This document shows positions 4,370-14,441 of a DNA stretch of 14,441 nucleotides, piece by piece. The translations under genes were made by a program, and so were the position numbers. The DNA is taken from positions 1-14,441 of the forward strand of contig RFHZ01000886.1 in assembly GCA_003696125.1 (NCBI GenBank), in the 5' to 3' direction. Source of the DNA: Nitrospinota bacterium. GTDB lineage: Bacteria; Tectomicrobia; Entotheonellia; J063. The notes below the pieces were generated by a model that did no database searches, was not told where the DNA came from, and was given only the letters and a program-made list of their open reading frames with translations. The first letter of the stretch is position 1. Every line of letters begins with the position of its first letter.

Positions 4370-5863
4370 CTAAGGGAGCATGGCCATGGCCTTTACCGAA
4401 CCGAGAAGAGGAGTTACTGCCGTCTTGGCTGCCGAGAGGAAGGGATGGGGATAGACACCGATGAGCAACGTACCGATGGCCATGACGAGGATGGCAACCG
4501 TTAAGGCAGGGGAGTAAGAGAAAGAGACCGTCTTTTCCGGTTCCCGCATATACATGGCCATGACGACTCGGAAGTAGTAGTAGAGGGAGATGGCACTGTT
4601 GGCAACGCCGATGATGGCCAGCCAGACAAACCCCTCGCGAATGGCTGCCGCAAAGATATAGAACTTGGCCACAAACCCACCGGTCGGTGGAATACCGGTC
4701 AAAGAGAGGAAAAAGAGCACCATGGCCATGGCGGCATACGGCTGTACCCGTGCCAGGCCGGTAAAATCGGAGATAAACTCTCCCCGGTTTTGTTTATCGC
4801 GGCAGAGGAGAATCACCAGGGCAAAGCAGCCGATGTTCATGAACCCGTACACCAGGGCGTAGAGCAGCACGCTGGCCAGACCGATCTCGTTCCCCGCCAC
4901 GATGCCGATCAGGAGGTAGCCGGCGCTGGCGATGCTGGAATAGGCGAGAAGACGTTTGATATTGGTCTGGTTGATCGCCACCAGATTCCCCAGGGTCATG
5001 GTCAGGACGGCCAGCACCCAGAGGAGCGGTTCCCAGTTCGCTTTGCTTCCCCCCAGGGCAACGAAGAAGATCCGGAGCAGGGCTGCAAAGGAGGCGGCTT
5101 TAGAGCCGACCGACAAAAAGGCGGTGATGGAAGTGGGTGCTCCTTCATAGACATCGGGTGCCCACATATGAAAAGGGACCGCCGACACCTTGAATCCGAA
5201 CCCGGCGATCAGGAGCACCATGGAGAGGATAAGGATCGGATTCCCGTACAGGTTCTTCTCGGCCAGGACAGCAGCAATGCGGGGCAGGGCCGTCTCTCCG
5301 GTCAACCCGTACAAGAGGGCCAGACCGTAGAGGAGGATGCCGGAGGAAAAAGCCCCTACCAGGAAGTACTTGAGTGCCGCCTCGATCGATTTCAGCTCCC
5401 GCTTGAAGAACCCGATCAGGACATAGAGGCAGAAGGACATCAACTCCAGCGCGATGTAGATGGTCAGGAGCTCATTGCCGGCCGCCATGATCATCATGCC
5501 GAGCGTGGCCAGCAGGACCAGCACATAGTACTCTCCCCGGCTCGCCTCCTCCACCTCCAGATAGCGTAAGGAGATCATGATGGTCAATGCCGCTACCAGG
5601 AGGAAGACGAGCTTGAAGAAGAGGGCAAACCCATCGACCAGGAACATCCCCCCAAAGGTGGCCAGCGATTTTCCTCCTATCAACATGGCGAGTGAAGCGA
5701 GCATGGCACCCAGAATACCCTGCAGGCTGAGATAGCCGAGCCAGGTGCGCTGGTGTTCCTTGCCCATGGCAAAATCGACCACCAGCACCACACAGGCCAT
5801 AAACAGGATGATGATCTCGGGGAGGATGGCTCCAAAATTCGGCATGGGAAATGTTATCGGCAT
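4370..5863 (-). CDS. nuoN: NADH-quinone oxidoreductase subunit N, second copy (NuoN2)
   Basis: A 497-residue antiporter-like membrane subunit of complex I. It is the pump nearest to the J/K/A/H part of the membrane arm and takes part in proton translocation. It is a chain of hydrophobic helices (14 expected) with the family residues in place: Glu140 (YIALELMS), Lys225 ([14 protein letters not shown]), Lys255 ([10 protein letters not shown]) and Lys400 ([10 protein letters not shown]). The family motif [16 protein letters not shown] is also present. The frame is open to 5950, but I place the start at ATG 5863: it has a perfect AAGGAGG 7 nt upstream, and the extra 29 residues would only overlap the nuoM2 tail. 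Its start overlaps the end of nuoM2 by 10 nt, suggesting translational coupling. It is paralogous to nuoN1 in this window; the central TM7-8 segments are nearly alike while loops differ. It is the last nuo gene of the run. Confidence 0.97.
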
Positions 5864-7605
5864 CGTCCTACCTCCTTGGGAGCAGAGCGGAAGGTTGTCC
5901 ATTCCCCTTGGGATTCCAGACGCGTTCTGCGAGAGGTTCCCTCTCCACACCCACCTGCCGGTTGCTTCTCCCTGGACGCCTGCCAGGTGGCCTCTGCAGG
6001 AGAAAGACCCCCTTTCTCGGCCAGCACAAAGGGAGTCGTCCTATCAGAAGTCTCCTGCCGGGAGAAGACCGGAGCAGAGGCCTGCTCCATCTGGGCCGTG
6101 CGCTCCTGCATCTGCTGCACCAGGTGATTCACCGACGGCTCCATCAGGCGGAGATACGGCTTGGGATAGAGCCCGATCCAGAGCATGAAGATGATGAGGG
6201 GAACCATATACGCCACCTCACGCGGATTACAATCGGTCAGGGTCTCGTTTTCCGGCTTGTCCAGGGTCCCGAACATCATGCGCTGATACATCCAGAGCAT
6301 GTAGGCTGCTCCCAGGATGATCCCTATCACGGCAAAGGCGGCATAGATGGCCTTGGCCTGAAAAGCACCGACCAGGATCAGGAACTCCCCGACAAACCCG
6401 TTGAGTCCGGGTAGCCCGATGGAGGAGAACATGGTGATGGCAAAGATGGTGGCGAACACCGGTACCTTTCGCGATATGCCCCCAAAATCGCTGATCAGCC
6501 GGGTGTGTCGGCGCTCGTAAATGATCCCGACGATCAAGAAGAGGGCGCCGGTACTGAGTCCATGGTTGATCATCTGGAGAATACTCCCCATGATCCCCTC
6601 TGGATTGAGGGCAAACATCCCCAGCATGACAAACCCGAGATGACTCACACTGGAATATGCGACCAGCTTCTTCACATCCTGCTGCGCCATGGCCACCAGT
6701 GCACCGTAAATGATCCCGATCACCGCCAGCACGACCATGGCCGGCACAAAGTACTGGCTGGCATAGGGGAAGAGGGACAGGCTAAAACGCACAAACCCGT
6801 ATGTCCCCATCTTTAAGAGGACCCCGGCCAGAATCACGCTTCCTGCCGTCGGGGCCTCCACGTGGGCATCGGGAAGCCAGGTATGGAAGGGGAACATGGG
6901 GACTTTGATGGCAAAGGCGATGAAGAAAGCCAGGAAGAGCCAGATCTGTTGTGTCGTCGAGAGATTGGTCTGGAGCAATTCGAGGAAATTAAAGGTATAG
7001 ACGCCGGTCTGGCCCCCGTGGATGAAATAGAGGCCCAAGATCCCCAACAACATCAAGACACTGCCGAAGAGGGTGTAGAGGAAGAACTTGATCGCCGCAT
7101 AGAGCTTTCTGGGTCCTCCCCAGATCCCGATCAGGAAATACATCGGCACAAGCATCACTTCCCAGAAGACATAGAAGAGGAAGAGATCGAGGGCCACAAA
7201 CACCCCCAGCATCCCGGTCTCCAGGAGGAGCAGGGAGACGTAGTACTCCTTCTCCCGCTCTGTAATGGCGGTAAAGGAGCTGAGGACCGATATGGCGGTC
7301 AGGATGGTGGTCAAGAGGACGAGCAGGATACTGATCCCGTCTACGCCAAAGAAGTACTCTACCCCGATGGCCGGAATCCAGGAGGCCCGTTCCACAAACT
7401 GGAACTGGTGCGTCGTGGTGTCAAAGTAAGGGACCAGGAAGACGATGGAGATTATCGCATCCACCAGCGAAACACTCAACGCAAAATACTTGATCTCCCT
7501 GGTCTGCTCTTTCTGCAAGAAGGCCATGATAATGAGGGCCCCGACCAAAGGGAGATAGGTAATCAGCGATAAGATTGGGAAGCCACCCAGCGCATGCTCA
7601 ATCAT
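5854..7605 (-). CDS. nuoM: NADH-quinone oxidoreductase subunit M, second copy (NuoM2), with long C-terminal tail
   Basis: A 583-residue complex I antiporter-like subunit forming a proton channel in the membrane arm. The charged residues of the path are all present: Glu149 ([16 protein letters not shown]), Lys234 ([18 protein letters not shown]), Lys265 ([11 protein letters not shown]) and Glu407 ([12 protein letters not shown]). The transporter body ends near residue 498. The last 85 or so residues form a polar tail rich in Ser, Thr, Arg, Glu and Gln that I cannot assign; E. coli NuoM has 509 residues, so this copy is unusually long. ATG 7605 has AGGAGG 8 nt upstream. The gene starts 118 nt after nuoL2, the widest gap in the nuo run, and overlaps nuoN2 by 10 nt. 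It is closely related to nuoM1: in the 60-residue block M2 221-280 against M1 211-270, I count 53 identities. Confidence 0.97.
5871..5877 (-). promoter_or_regulatory. Strong ribosome binding site setting the nuoN2 start
   Basis: AAGGAGG (CCTCCTT on the plus strand) lies 7 nt before ATG 5863, inside the last codons of nuoM2. This near-consensus site decides in favour of 5863 over the upstream in-frame start at 5950. Confidence 0.75.
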
Positions 7606-7723: not shown

Positions 7724-9736
7724 TCAAAAGACCAGGTAGAGCGTGATGATCACGAAGATTCCCAGGACCATGAACAGCAGATAGTTCTGGACAAAACCGG
7801 TCTGGAGGTAACGTAACACCCTGGCCCCCACCGTAATCAGCACCGAGACGCCGTTCACCGCCCCATCAACCGTCCGCAGATCGATATCACCGGAAAAACT
7901 GCTGACCCGCACCGTGCTATTGCTGGCACCATTGACCAGGCCATCGTCGATGACTTTGACATCGACCGCTCCCCAGAGGAAATGGGCGAAGCGCTTGCAG
8001 TTTTCCACGATATAGGTATCGTAGAACTCATCCACCCAGTACTTGTTCAGCAACAGCTCATAGAGGGCAGAGAAACGCTGGGAGAGTTTCTCCGGCGTAT
8101 CAGGACGGAGAATATAGAAATAGTAAGCCACCAGGATACCGGCCACCCCCACCGCGATCGAGATGAGCATCAAGACGGCATCCAGGACATGAAAGCCTCC
8201 TTCCTCCACCGCATGGGCGGCTTCAGCGGCAAAGGCGACATGGGCACTGGCTGCCTGGTGTCCTCCTCCCAGCACCGGCTCAAGAAAACGATGAATCCAT
8301 CCAGCTTCCGGGGGAAAACCGGGGATGAGGCCACCGATGATGGAGAGGATGGCCAGAACGACTAAGGGGATGGTCATTACCGGAGGAGATTCATGCAGGT
8401 GGTGCATGGCCTCCTCACTCACCCGCGAGGGACCGTAAAAGGTGAGGAAGATGAGACGGAACATGTAAAAGGCGGTCATAAACGCTGCCACCACCCCGAT
8501 CAGCCAGAGGAGATAGTGGCCATTCTTGAAGGCCTCGGCCAGAATCTCATCCTTGCTCCAAAACCCGGCCAGTGGTGGGATGCCGGCAATGGCGATTGCG
8601 CCCACCAGAAAGGTCCAGTGGGTGGTGGGAAGATAGGGCCGTAATCCCCCCATCCTCCGCATATCCTGCTCACCGGAAAGGGCATGAATCACGCTACCCG
8701 AGCAGAGAAAGAGGAGTCCTTTAAAGAAGGCGTGGGTCATCAGGTGGAAAATGCCGGCAACGTAGGCTCCTACCCCTGCCCCCAGAAACATATAGCCGAG
8801 CTGGCTGACCGTGGAATAGGCCAGGACCCGTTTGATATCGTTCTGCACCAGGCCGATGGAGGCGGCAAAGATGGCGGTCAACCCACCGATAACCGCCACC
8901 AGTTCGGCGGAAAAGGGGGCTGCGCTATAGAGCACGTTGCTTCGCGCCACCATATAGACGCCAGCCGTGACCATGGTTGCCGCGTGAATCAAGGCACTGA
9001 CCGGGGTCGGGCCTTCCATGGCATCTGGTAACCAGACATAGAGCGGGATCTGGGCCGACTTGCCGATGGCACCCAGGAAGAGGCAGAGCGTGATTGCGGT
9101 CACGATCCCCACACTGACCTCCTCGACGCGAGGAAAGATCTCGCTGTAATTGAGGGTACCAAAGGTGGCAAAGAGGAGGAAAATCCCGAGCAGGAAACCG
9201 GCATCACCGATGCGGTTGACGACAAACGCCTTTTTCCCGGCATCGGCTGCCGATTTCCGCTCAAACCAGAACCCGATTAAGAGATAAGAGCAGAGGCCGA
9301 CCCCCTCCCATCCGACGAACATGAGCAGGTAGTTATTGGCCAGCACCAGCAGCAGCATGGAGAACATGAAGAGATTGATGTAGGTAAAGTACCGATAGTA
9401 ACCACCATCACCGTGCATGTACCCAACAGAGTAGATGTGCACCAGCAGCCCAACACCAGCAACCACAAGGAGCATGATGGCACTGAGGGGGTCGATAAGA
9501 AAACCGACATTCACCTTGAAGGAGCCGGCCGTCACCCATTCATAGAGGCTGACCTCCACACTCCCGTATCCCAAGGCAACTTCCAGGAAAACGATGACCG
9601 AAAGGAGAAAGGAGATGGCTACCGAACCCACTCCGAGATAGTGAGCCTTCTCCCGGATATACTTCCGTCCGAAGAGGCCATTGATGACCACCGCAATCAA
9701 GGGGAAAAGAGGGATAAGCCACGGATAGTATCGCAT
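7724..9736 (-). CDS. nuoL: NADH-quinone oxidoreductase subunit L, second copy (NuoL2), with extended lateral-helix region
   Basis: A 670-residue complex I subunit, the distal antiporter-like pump whose C-terminal lateral helix runs back along the membrane arm. The proton-path residues are intact: Glu144 (FVGWEGVGLCSYLLIG), Asp178 (NRIGDAG), Lys226 (GAIGKSAQIPLYVWLPDAM), His251 region (SALIHAATMVTAGVY), Lys339 (HAFFKGLLFL) and Lys395 (FWSKDEIL). After the conserved LLLNKYWVDEFYD (about 561-573) comes the lateral-helix region. Relative to NuoL1 in this window it carries exactly 27 extra residues before the shared LQTGFV motif at 644. The extra block (592-618) starts DVKVIDDGLVNG and the next block (619 on) starts DLRTVDGAVNG, so it looks like a tandem duplication. 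The ATG at 9736 follows AAGGAG at good spacing. It lies 26 nt after nuoK. The extension is what a complex with an additional pump between L and N would need. Confidence 0.97.
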   Translation of the reverse strand: MRYYPWLIPLFPLIAVVINGLFGRKYIREKAHYLGVGSVAISFLLSVIVFLEVALGYGSVEVSLYEWVTAGSFKVNVGFLIDPLSAIMLLVVAGVGLLVHIYSVGYMHGDGGYYRYFTYINLFMFSMLLLVLANNYLLMFVGWEGVGLCSYLLIGFWFERKSAADAGKKAFVVNRIGDAGFLLGIFLLFATFGTLNYSEIFPRVEEVSVGIVTAITLCLFLGAIGKSAQIPLYVWLPDAMEGPTPVSALIHAATMVTAGVYMVARSNVLYSAAPFSAELVAVIGGLTAIFAASIGLVQNDIKRVLAYSTVSQLGYMFLGAGVGAYVAGIFHLMTHAFFKGLLFLCSGSVIHALSGEQDMRRMGGLRPYLPTTHWTFLVGAIAIAGIPPLAGFWSKDEILAEAFKNGHYLLWLIGVVAAFMTAFYMFRLIFLTFYGPSRVSEEAMHHLHESPPVMTIPLVVLAILSIIGGLIPGFPPEAGWIHRFLEPVLGGGHQAASAHVAFAAEAAHAVEEGGFHVLDAVLMLISIAVGVAGILVAYYFYILRPDTPEKLSQRFSALYELLLNKYWVDEFYDTYIVENCKRFAHFLWGAVDVKVIDDGLVNGASNSTVRVSSFSGDIDLRTVDGAVNGVSVLITVGARVLRYLQTGFVQNYLLFMVLGIFVIITLYLVF
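7883..7963 (-). repeat. 27-residue duplicated unit in the NuoL2 lateral-helix region
   Basis: These 81 bases encode NuoL2 residues 592-618, which have no counterpart in NuoL1. The unit begins DVKVIDDGLVNG; the following segment, beginning DLRTVDGAVNG at residue 619, has exactly the same spacing to LQTGFV as the single DVRRIDGLVNG unit of NuoL1. At the DNA level the two units are already well diverged, so the duplication is old. The exact boundary may slide by several residues (alternatively 598-624, positions 7865-7945). Confidence 0.75.
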
Positions 9737-9762: not shown

Positions 9763-10065
9763 TTACCACTTCAGTAGATTGACCTCATCGACATTCAGCG
9801 TTCCTTTGAGGCGATGTATACAGATGACAATGGCTAATCCGATTGCCGCTTCAGCCGCGGCAACGGCAATGATAAAGATGGCAAACGCCTGTCCCCGGAA
9901 ATCTCCCAGGAAATTGGAGAAGGAGACCAGGGTAATGTTGACGGCATTGAAGATGAGTTCTATGGACATCAGGATGACGATCGCATTCCGTCGAATAAGC
10001 GCTCCCCATACGCCGATCCCGAAGATAATCGCTCCCAAGGTGAGATAGAATGATAGTGGAACCAC
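9763..10065 (-). CDS. nuoK: NADH-quinone oxidoreductase subunit K (NuoK)
   Basis: A 100-residue complex I membrane subunit with three transmembrane helices, homologous to MrpC/ND4L, which passes the conformational and proton signal between the quinone site and the pumps. The two membrane glutamates known to be essential in E. coli are present at the same numbers, Glu36 (ILMSIELIFNAVN) and Glu72 (VAAAEAAIGLAIV). Length is normal. Translation starts at GTG 10065, 6 nt after AAGGAG. The gene is 28 nt after nuoJ and 26 nt before nuoL2, the usual J-K-L order. Only one nuoK lies in the window. If NuoL1-M1-N1 belong to a separate complete set, their nuoK must lie beyond the right edge. Confidence 0.98.
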   Translation of the reverse strand: MVPLSFYLTLGAIIFGIGVWGALIRRNAIVILMSIELIFNAVNITLVSFSNFLGDFRGQAFAIFIIAVAAAEAAIGLAIVICIHRLKGTLNVDEVNLLKW

Positions 10066-10093: not shown

Positions 10094-10597
10094 TTAATCC
10101 CGTCGCGCCAGGATAATGGCGCCAATCATGGCCGCTAACAGCAGAATCGATGCCACCTCAAACGGTAAGAGATAGTCGGTAAAGAGGACCGTACCGAGTC
10201 CCTCGGTCGGGGTCTGTCCCCCCAGTTGGGCCAGGATGGCGTTCGGTTTGCCTCCCGAGGGGAGTCCCCGCCAGAGCACGACGATCACCTCTAAGAGGAG
10301 AATCCCTCCGATGGCCAGGGCCACCGGCCACTGGCCATGCCACTGTCGCAACCGTTGCAGTTCCTGGAGATTAGAAAGCAAGAGGACAAAGAGGATCAGG
10401 ATGACCATGGCACTGGCGTAGATCAGAATCTGCACCGCGGCTAAGAACTCGGCATAGAGCAGGATATACACCCCGGCCACACAGAAGAAGGTGAGGACCA
10501 GGTAGAGGACACCATGCACCACATTCTTGGCCGTTACCACCTTGATGGCTGCGAAGATCATCACCGCGGCCAAAAGAAAAAAGAGAAGGAATTGCAT
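10094..10597 (-). CDS. nuoJ: NADH-quinone oxidoreductase subunit J (NuoJ)
   Basis: A 167-residue complex I membrane subunit (ND6 homologue) with five predicted helices. Helix 3 carries the family signature AEFLAAVQILIYASAMVILI (about 49-68), including Tyr60 in the position of the conserved tyrosine near the helix break that switches between alpha and pi forms. The C-terminal helix ends IGAIILARRD. ATG 10597 has GGAG 7 nt upstream. The gene opens the J-K-L2-M2-N2 block, 97 nt downstream of nuoN1. Having J directly after an N gene is not the usual order, because J normally follows I, so this marks a junction between two nuo gene sets. Nothing in the protein itself looks unusual. Confidence 0.97.
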   Translation of the reverse strand: MQFLLFFLLAAVMIFAAIKVVTAKNVVHGVLYLVLTFFCVAGVYILLYAEFLAAVQILIYASAMVILILFVLLLSNLQELQRLRQWHGQWPVALAIGGILLLEVIVVLWRGLPSGGKPNAILAQLGGQTPTEGLGTVLFTDYLLPFEVASILLLAAMIGAIILARRD

Positions 10598-10694: not shown

Positions 10695-12152
10695 TTACCC
10701 CCCCATCAATCCCGCCGCTGCCTGCTGGATGATCGGGAGGATCGATCCCGGGAAAAGCCCAAAATAGAGGATTCCCACGCTGGCCAGGACCAGGGCCACC
10801 ACCAGGGCCGGGTCGAAGCTCACCGCCACCCCCTTGGCCGGCTGTTGCATGTACATGACCACCACCACCCGTAGGTAATAGTAGAGGGAAATCAGCGAGT
10901 TGATCACCCCCAGGATGGTGAGAAAGACGTACCCGCTCATCACCGCAGCACTGAAGATATAGAACTTCCCGACAAATCCTGCCGTGGGCGGAATCCCGGC
11001 CAGGGAGAGCATGAAGAGGGCCATGACGACACCCAACAACGGGTAGCGATAGCCGAGTCCCCTGTACTCATCGATCTGCACAAACGCCTCTTCTTCTCTG
11101 ACCAGAAGGGAAACCACGGCAAAGGCACCGAAGTTCATGAAGGTATAGACCAGGAGGTAAAAGAGCGCTCCACCCGCTCCGGCCCTGCTCCCCGCCGTCA
11201 GCGCCACCAGGGTATAACCGGCATGGGCAATGCTCGAGTAGGCCAGCATCCGTTTGATATTCCCCTGCACCAGCGCACTGAGATTGCCGACGGTCATGGT
11301 CAAAGCGGCCAGAATCCAGAAGATCGCCGTCCAGGAAGGACGCAGGGAGAAGAATGCGCTACCGAAGATGCGCAGCAAGACGGCAAACCCGGCCATCTTG
11401 GGTCCGGTAGACATAAAGGCGGTAATCGGCGTGGGTGCGCCTTCATAGACGTCTGGAGTCCACATGTGAAAGGGGACAGAGGCGATCTTGAACCCAAACC
11501 CGACCAGGAGCAATCCCATGCCGACCAGAAAGAGAGGCTCGTTTCCCATCCGATGCCGGCTCGCAAAGAGATGAATCTGGGAGAGATTGGTACTCCCCGT
11601 GGTCCCATAGATCAGGGCGATACCGTAGAGGAGAAACCCGGTAGCAAACGCCCCCAGCAGGAAGTACTTCATGGCCGATTCGATCGATCTGGCTTTGTCT
11701 CGTAAAAATCCGGCCAGGATGTATTGCGCCAGGGAGAGCAACTCCAGCCCGATGAAGATGATGAGCAGGTCTCTTCCGGCCACCATCAGTATCATCCCGG
11801 TCGTGGCCAAAAGGAGCAGCGCATAGTACTCCCCGTTGTTCACCTCTGCTGTCTGCCGCATATACTGCCGGGAGAGAAAAACGGTAAAGAGGGCCACCAG
11901 CAAGAAGAGCAGGGTAAAGAAGGTGCTAAACGCATCCACCGTCAGCATCCCATAGAAGAACGTCCCTTGCTCTCCCCACAGCATCAGGGTGGCCAGGATG
12001 GCTACCCCGATCCCCCCTAAGGTCAGCGAGGAGAGAGCTCCCCGCTCCTGGGAGGAAAAGAGATCCACCAGCAACACCACCAGGCCAAAGCTGGCCAGAA
12101 TGAGCTGGGGTGCCACACCGCTTAAGGTGGTCAATGTCGCACTACCTTCCAT
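10695..12152 (-). CDS. nuoN: NADH-quinone oxidoreductase subunit N, first copy (NuoN1)
   Basis: A 485-residue antiporter-like complex I subunit. Family residues are intact: Glu137 (FIGLELLSLAQYILAG), Lys222 (GFGFKIASVPFHMW), Lys252 (TGPKMAGFAVLL) and Lys396 (AGFVGKFYIF). The motif [15 protein letters not shown] distinguishes N from L and M. Length is normal and there are no disruptions. The ATG at 12152 overlaps the end of nuoM1 by 11 nt and has a GGAG about 8 nt upstream. It is a clear paralogue of nuoN2 but not a recent copy: the two differ throughout their N-terminal helices and loops. It is followed unusually by nuoJ rather than by the end of the operon. Confidence 0.97.
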   Translation of the reverse strand: MEGSATLTTLSGVAPQLILASFGLVVLLVDLFSSQERGALSSLTLGGIGVAILATLMLWGEQGTFFYGMLTVDAFSTFFTLLFLLVALFTVFLSRQYMRQTAEVNNGEYYALLLLATTGMILMVAGRDLLIIFIGLELLSLAQYILAGFLRDKARSIESAMKYFLLGAFATGFLLYGIALIYGTTGSTNLSQIHLFASRHRMGNEPLFLVGMGLLLVGFGFKIASVPFHMWTPDVYEGAPTPITAFMSTGPKMAGFAVLLRIFGSAFFSLRPSWTAIFWILAALTMTVGNLSALVQGNIKRMLAYSSIAHAGYTLVALTAGSRAGAGGALFYLLVYTFMNFGAFAVVSLLVREEEAFVQIDEYRGLGYRYPLLGVVMALFMLSLAGIPPTAGFVGKFYIFSAAVMSGYVFLTILGVINSLISLYYYLRVVVVMYMQQPAKGVAVSFDPALVVALVLASVGILYFGLFPGSILPIIQQAAAGLMGG

Positions 12153-13799: not shown

Positions 13800-14441
13800 T
13801 CACCGATAGGAAAAGAGCAACACGGTGATCACGAAGACCACTCCCAGGAACAGGGAAAGGGCATAATTGCGGACAAAACCGGTCTGCAGCCGACTCACCT
13901 TCAACCCATCCCAGCGCACCATCTCTCCCACACCATTGACCAGCCCATCGATCCGCCGCACATCGCAGCGCTCCCAGAACCAGGTCGCCAGCCGGAGACA
14001 GGGCTGGACGATCCAGCGGTCATAGAGCTCATCCACATAGTATTTGTTCAGCAACAGCGTGTAAAGCTCGGGGAACCGTTCCCGGGTCTGCTGGGCCAGG
14101 GCCGGCTTCTGCACGTACATCCGGTAGGCCAGCCCGATCCCGAGTAACCCGACGACCAGAGAGAGGAGCATCAGGACCAGTTCTTCCCCCCAGGCATGCG
14201 ACTCTGCCTTCTCCAACAGGGGAGCTGCATCGTGAAATACCGGAGCCAGGAAGCGCTCTATCCCGTTGAACCGCTCCCAGAAGGGCAGACCGAAAAACCC
14301 GGCGATGGTGGAGAAGATGGCCAGAATCCCCAGCGGACCGATCATCACGGTCGGCGACTCATGCACATGCTCTTCCACCGCCTCCTCCACGCGCGACTCG
14401 CCATGAAAGGTGAGGAAGAAGAGACGGAAGATATAAAAGGC
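13800..14441 (-). CDS. nuoL: NADH-quinone oxidoreductase subunit L, first copy (NuoL1), C-terminal 213 residues only
   Basis: The frame runs off the right edge, so only the C-terminal third of this distal complex I pump is seen. It begins AFYIFRLFFLTFHGESR, matching AFYMFRLIFLTFYGPSR in NuoL2, then EHVHESP. A loop with LAPVFHDAAPLLEKAES and a transmembrane segment follow, and then LLLNKYYVDELYD, which opens the lateral-helix region. A single DVRRIDGLVNG unit precedes LQTGFVRNYALS and the last helix, so the lateral-helix region is of ordinary length, 27 residues shorter than in NuoL2. The apparent in-frame GTG at 14390 is internal. It starts the visible L1-M1-N1 block; genes upstream of it, presumably other nuo genes, are outside the window. 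Confidence 0.96.
   Translation of the reverse strand, partial: AFYIFRLFFLTFHGESRVEEAVEEHVHESPTVMIGPLGILAIFSTIAGFFGLPFWERFNGIERFLAPVFHDAAPLLEKAESHAWGEELVLMLLSLVVGLLGIGLAYRMYVQKPALAQQTRERFPELYTLLLNKYYVDELYDRWIVQPCLRLATWFWERCDVRRIDGLVNGVGEMVRWDGLKVSRLQTGFVRNYALSLFLGVVFVITVLLFSYR

Follow-up and report, generated by a model that had tools for sequence, protein, structure and literature searches.

How many antiporter-like subunits does a complex I hold when its NuoL carries a lengthened lateral helix (HL), as in 2M complex I, but only one nuoM stands beside it? The question is raised by the window analysed here, 14,441 nucleotides that make up the entire contig C290 of a MAG of 990 contigs. Its minus strand carries the genes L1 (3' part)-M1-N1-J2-K2-L2-M2-N2:

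13800..14441, minus strand: nuoL1, 3' part; the 5' part lies on contig C507
12142..13761, minus strand: nuoM1, canonical type, partner of NuoL1 (TIGR01972, 660.6 bits); falls with the partners of short NuoLs
10695..12152, minus strand: nuoN1 (TIGR01770, 469.9 bits)
10094..10597, minus strand: nuoJ2
9763..10065, minus strand: nuoK2
7724..9736, minus strand: nuoL2, extended NuoL of 670 aa, above the curated NuoL cut-offs (TIGR01974, 787.9 versus 407.5 bits; PRK06590, 791.3 versus 556 bits)
5854..7605, minus strand: nuoM2, the only nuoM downstream of nuoL2 (TIGR01972, 657.5 bits); groups with the NuoM partners of extended NuoLs
4370..5950, minus strand: nuoN2 (TIGR01770, 476.2 bits)

J1, K1 and the remaining part of L1 lie on contig C507, which overlaps the end of the window over 74 identical bases, so that the array consists of two tandem J-K-L-M-N modules. 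The genome encodes six antiporter-like proteins in all (L1, M1, N1, L2, M2 and N2), with exactly two NuoM. The preliminary description had expected a second NuoM to accompany the insert; instead, a single NuoM follows it (J2-K2-L2-M2-N2), and M1 belongs to the separate J1-K1-L1-M1-N1 module. Other nuo genes of the MAG lie on fragments C435, C183, C288 and C977. On C183 (L126, G000:C183, 3912-5288), the end of nuoD and nuoE-F-G are followed by a membrane iron-sulphur heterodisulfide-reductase-like gene, so named from its sequence only. The nearest relative, L015, lacks nuoE, F and G.

The two NuoLs of the array differ in length between the motifs NKYxVDE and LQTGFV, and the parts concerned are as follows:

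7808..8047, minus strand: HL interval of NuoL2, NKYWVDE to LQTGFV, 80 residues (564-643)
7883..7963, minus strand: extra HL unit of NuoL2, DVKVIDDGLVNGASNSTVRVSSFSGDI, residues 592-618; by lag autocorrelation and motif, the second copy of a ~26-residue HL unit
7802..7882, minus strand: second block by the count of the preliminary description, 27 codons, residues 619-645, DLRTVDGAVNGVSVLITVGARVLRYLQ; corresponds to the single NuoL1 unit
7727..7807, minus strand: C-terminal anchoring helix of NuoL2 after the HL (LQTGFVQNY...), conserved past the HL
13890..14048, minus strand: HL interval of NuoL1, 53 residues, one unit, the in-genome control

With 80 versus 53 residues, the difference is exactly 27, and the surplus originally claimed for NuoL2 was confirmed as the block at 7963-7883. 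The insert is one extra HL unit of ~26 residues; the 27 added residues include some that are peculiar to NuoL2 (IDDG for IDG), and the second block, which opens with DLRTVDGAVNG at 7882, takes in the first residues of the LQTG motif. The anchoring helix after the HL is conserved in one-unit and extended NuoLs alike, and the role of this final transmembrane helix has been described (PMC3046159). An assembly or reading-frame artefact, for which we found no support and which could appeal only to the 990 contigs of the MAG, is extremely improbable: the NuoL2 frame is open, and the matching length class in dozens of independent genomes already refutes it.

Canonical NuoL, Nqo12, NdhF and ND5 proteins (E. 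coli, Thermus, cyanobacterial and mitochondrial) align with NuoL2 over the core fold and the start of the HL. They differ in the HL interval, which comprises 49 residues in E. coli and mostly 53-54 in other one-unit NuoLs versus 80 in NuoL2. An AlphaFold2 monomer model of NuoL2 (mean pLDDT 82) superimposed on E. coli NuoL with an rmsd of 1.9 over 541 residues. The last aligned position was model residue 590, equivalent to E. coli residue 562, so the insert begins at the level of E. coli D563, which together with D542 and D546 lies inside the E. coli interval (residues 537-591). The location in the lateral helix that had been proposed for the insert is thus confirmed. DSSP assigned helices to residues 566-598, 600-614 and 616-669, and the pLDDT fell below 50 at 608-627, so that the insert is modelled with low confidence. 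The suggestion that the Ser-, Asn- and Gly-rich unit is partly non-helical is therefore weakly opposed by the model, which is helical at low confidence except for single-residue breaks at 599 and 615. A PDB sequence search found no solved structure of an extended NuoL, the best matches being canonical L/ND5 proteins, and a search of the literature and the PDB found neither structure nor stoichiometry for any extended-NuoL complex.

Could the insert have arisen from the HL unit that was already there? When the two 27-residue blocks of NuoL2 are compared without gaps, they are identical at 4/27 residues; with one gap they have a motif stretch of 13-14 residues in common (local score 34, shuffle p = 0.003). 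In NuoL2 alone, the duplication is therefore visible only in the motif half (D..V.DG.VNG). Each block matches the single NuoL1 unit (shuffle p = 0.0006 and 0.00005), and residues 650-661 of Paracoccus NuoL match NuoL2 at two places in a phmmer search. Across 70 homologous two-unit lateral helices, the mean BLOSUM62 self-score peaked at lag 26 (z = 18.8, against 14.2 at lag 27), and three-unit HLs gave z = 12.7 at lag 26, where z serves as a description and not as a strict probability, the NuoL rows being related. The signal was controlled by within-segment shuffles and by 120 one-unit NuoLs, in which lag 26 scored below chance (z = -6.8). The repeat is clear in L016 (FDAKVVDGAVNG / FDLRTVDGAVNG), and other phyla also keep it clearly. 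The insert thus arose by a tandem duplication of the HL unit that is real but old. The internal duplication claimed in the preliminary description thus holds, with a family step of ~26 residues in place of the 27 then proposed.

Over the loci surveyed, HL intervals form classes of 49-55 residues (one unit), 77-89 (two), 104-105 (three) and 133 (four). The family step is ~26 residues, with 25 added in most. Three units were found in four genomes (L131, L175, L181 and L187) and four units in one (L184), and the length and motif of the extra unit are kept across many phyla. Two of the three units of L181 are alike at 17/26 amino acids and 68% of nucleotides, and by this similarity their duplication looks fairly recent. 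The 101 residues of L197 comprise two units with extra sequence ahead of them. The Chloroflexota NuoLs L190 and L206-L209 have intervals of 65 or 82-83 residues with no clear second unit; as these are not clearly unit-built, they were set aside. Nitrospirota appears in none of the record titles of the 80 named loci.

The preliminary description had also linked the insert to one more antiporter-like subunit, as in 2M complex I, for which Chadwick et al. 2018 is said to be the founding paper. Later work (PMC9040806, PMC6606698, PMC7117926) describes 2M complex I; its NuoL has an HL insertion of the same length as that of NuoL2, for which a 2M use is proposed (PMC9040806). The insertion of ~26-28 residues is found in NuoL2 (+27, at the level of E. 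coli D563); the second nuoM of an LMMN cluster is absent, and one nuoM stands beside NuoL2. Among NuoLs with readable M-N context, all 39 one-unit NuoLs were accompanied by M-N and none by M-M-N, one apparent 'MM' being a broken nuoM. Two-unit NuoLs were accompanied by M-N in 45 cases and by M-M-N in nine, three-unit NuoLs by M-N in three cases and the four-unit NuoL by M-N in one; these are counts of loci and not of independent events, some rows being near copies. Hence 49/58 extended NuoLs with readable context lie in single-nuoM clusters, while the LMMN clusters, from ~7 lineages (L198/L199 and L203/L204 are near copies), have two units in 9/9. Exactly one NuoM scored over the cut-off in seven Chloroflexota genomes with extended NuoLs, namely G042 and G043 (three units), G055 (four) and G045, G062, G077 and G091 (two), from a sample requested at ≥90% completeness with per-genome values not shown; as these are MAGs, any one absence is soft and the repetition is the evidence. 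A second nuoM accompanies two units, yet the extension does not imply a second nuoM. The 2M interpretation is accordingly supported in part, by the nine LMMN clusters and by the length of the insertion, and not as a general rule. The insert is absent from canonical single-NuoM complexes, yet most of its carriers have a single NuoM themselves, which goes half way towards the refutation foreseen in the preliminary description. At a contig end in an Aquificota genome (L135, G007:C4), a third NuoM-NuoN pair was present and no nuoL was seen.

Two further candidates for a general partner of the extended NuoL were rejected. A second NuoM supplied in trans is ruled out as a rule by the seven single-NuoM genomes. 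An extra MrpD-like partner is likewise ruled out as a rule: in a search for all antiporter-like proteins, G012 and G062 yielded nothing beyond L, M and N, to which G045 added a single 22-bit match.

Upstream genes were readable in 53 extended clusters, 51 of which lack E, F and G while two have them; among 29 readable short-HL clusters, 28 have EFG and one does not. Like the 11-subunit complex I without NuoEFG, most extended clusters comprise A-B-C-D-H-I-J-K-L-M-N only, and they differ from it by the longer HL. On FastTree trees, the extension label changed 15 times on the NuoL core and 4 times on NuoM, the latter tree including long branches. For the same 75 clusters, FastTree gave 9 changes on the L core, 3 on M, 2 on N, 4 on H, 5 on J, 3 on K and 1 on D. 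In mixture-model trees, built with the longest branches removed, a single branch (SH-aLRT 97) set the 43 NuoM partners of extended NuoLs, M2 of the window included, apart from the others. NuoM then needed 1 change and the NuoL core 9, of which well-supported branches force at least 5; being unrooted, these trees allow one origin of the extension and do not prove it. The nearest row to M2 among the partners of extended NuoLs was that of Tectomicrobia L015 (73% identity). Many independent insertions, which the 15 changes on the NuoL-core tree had suggested, were rejected: because the M, N, K and D trees hold the label together, we prefer a single group in which the NuoL core was exchanged repeatedly. 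Gene content and these trees show the extension to mark a putative single group of complexes I, mostly without NuoEFG. Elsewhere in the M tree, the second NuoM of the Chloroflexota 2M clusters (L182, L183, L185, L198, L203 and L212) forms its own distant group, and the first stands beside single-M clusters.

Where a genome has both forms, its two NuoLs are in most cases more alike in the core than in the HL and anchor. The readable NuoL core is 92% identical in G021 and the HL 42%. In G013, two nuoL genes are DNA-identical from codon 182 to ~570 (~389 codons) and diverge from codon 571, the start of the HL; metagenome assembly can fake such long identities, a risk that is lowered, not removed, by the copies sharing a contig with different flanks. 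Such comparisons show a NuoL core that has apparently been exchanged repeatedly with its canonical paralogue, with the HL and anchor spared. We read this as gene conversion that would overwrite the NuoL pump core and would not be tolerated in the HL strap. For the G013 pair, recorded under L137 (G013) and L110, gene conversion is the likely cause, and possibly assembly. In Entotheonella (L129, G010), the nuo genes are interleaved as L-M-A-D-E-F-H-J-K-N-J-K-L(ext)-M-N, which separates the canonical nuoL and nuoM from their nuoN.

What, then, would a longer HL do beside one nuoM? A helix rises 1.5 angstrom per residue, and 26 residues span 26 x 1.5 = 39 angstrom. One unit (~39 angstrom of helix) would match one antiporter-like subunit, so the number of units would determine how far the NuoL core lies from NuoN. 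We favour, at a probability of about 0.5, the reading that the HL acts as a strap in which each 26-residue step corresponds to one antiporter slot, the extra slot in single-nuoM clusters most likely holding another copy of the same NuoM. The strap would start at the NuoL core and run along the inner antiporter subunits, with the last transmembrane helix as its anchor beside NuoN, and HL contacts with M and N and an anchor beside N are described in PMC3046159. Each added unit would shift the NuoL core outwards by one subunit and so create another slot between it and NuoN. A second, different NuoM would fill this slot in LMMN clusters, in line with proposals in the literature on 2M complexes (PMC9040806, PMC6606698). 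Where there is a single nuoM, as in J2-K2-L2-M2-N2, the slot would most likely take up the same NuoM once more, and in the genome of the window the canonical NuoM1 could also occupy it. Consistent with a strap, the HL class follows the partner subunits (NuoM) and not the NuoL core. More tentatively, the HL may be a molecular ruler whose unit number sets the number of NuoM protomers in complex I; organisms with a single nuoM and 2-4 units would then build arms with several copies of one NuoM, and pump number would depend on helix length and not on gene number. Other reasons for keeping the units are conceivable, among them stiffness and contacts with K, J, A or H.

Such contacts are central to a rival account that we consider rather unlikely, in which the number of antiporter-like subunits stays at three and the HL uses its extra length to pass NuoN and follow K, J, A and H, thereby bracing an arm that works without the NADH module. 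It fits the one nuoM and missing EFG of most extended clusters, the seven single-NuoM genomes and the near absence of further antiporter-like proteins from G012, G062 and G045. Against it stand the two units in every LMMN cluster and the final anchoring helix, which is still present after the HL. A four-unit HL, moreover, adds ~120 angstrom, which exceeds the rest of the membrane arm and counts against such a course.

Two adjacent modules in a genome with exactly two NuoM would also suit a slot occupied in trans, in which case the canonical module would lend its NuoM1 to the NuoL2 complex and the two tandem modules would together give a 2M complex. We regard this as improbable: seven extended-NuoL genomes lack any second NuoM, and M1- and M2-type NuoMs fall in separate groups, though sharing would not forbid separate groups. 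Still less probable is a relic, that is, an ancestral 2M complex that lost its second nuoM many times and whose longer HL is now slack. The FastTree M tree does make the first NuoM of the Chloroflexota 2M clusters the sister of the single-M Chloroflexota group; yet single-M extended clusters also occur outside that pair, unit length and motif are conserved over many phyla, lineages with a single nuoM gained a third and a fourth unit, and the L181 duplication looks fairly recent.

The HL insertion of 2M NuoL and of other Manganitrophaceae NuoLs is already published. The accessible part of PMC9040806 reports similar insertions in NuoL of the Candidatus Manganitrophaceae complexes other than the unusual Complex_I_3; those of Complex_I_1/2 and of MrpD2, which is not a NuoL, resemble that of NuoL2 in size, and neither a repeat origin nor a ladder of units is described there for them. 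The insertion studied here differs from that of 2M complex I in the single nuoM beside its nuoL and in being shown as a repeat unit, found elsewhere in three and four copies. Our literature search did not find the repeat nature, the three and four units, the single-nuoM majority or the exchange boundary, some of which the founding 2018 paper may contain.

If the HL is a ruler, one in-frame duplication within one subunit could alter the number of pumps and with it the proton-to-electron ratio of complex I, and stoichiometry would be misjudged from gene counts. Even without a ruler, 'extended NuoL = 2M' is an unsafe annotation rule. The exchanged pump core and spared strap amount to a natural experiment, which points to the HL and anchor as the complex-specific part of NuoL.
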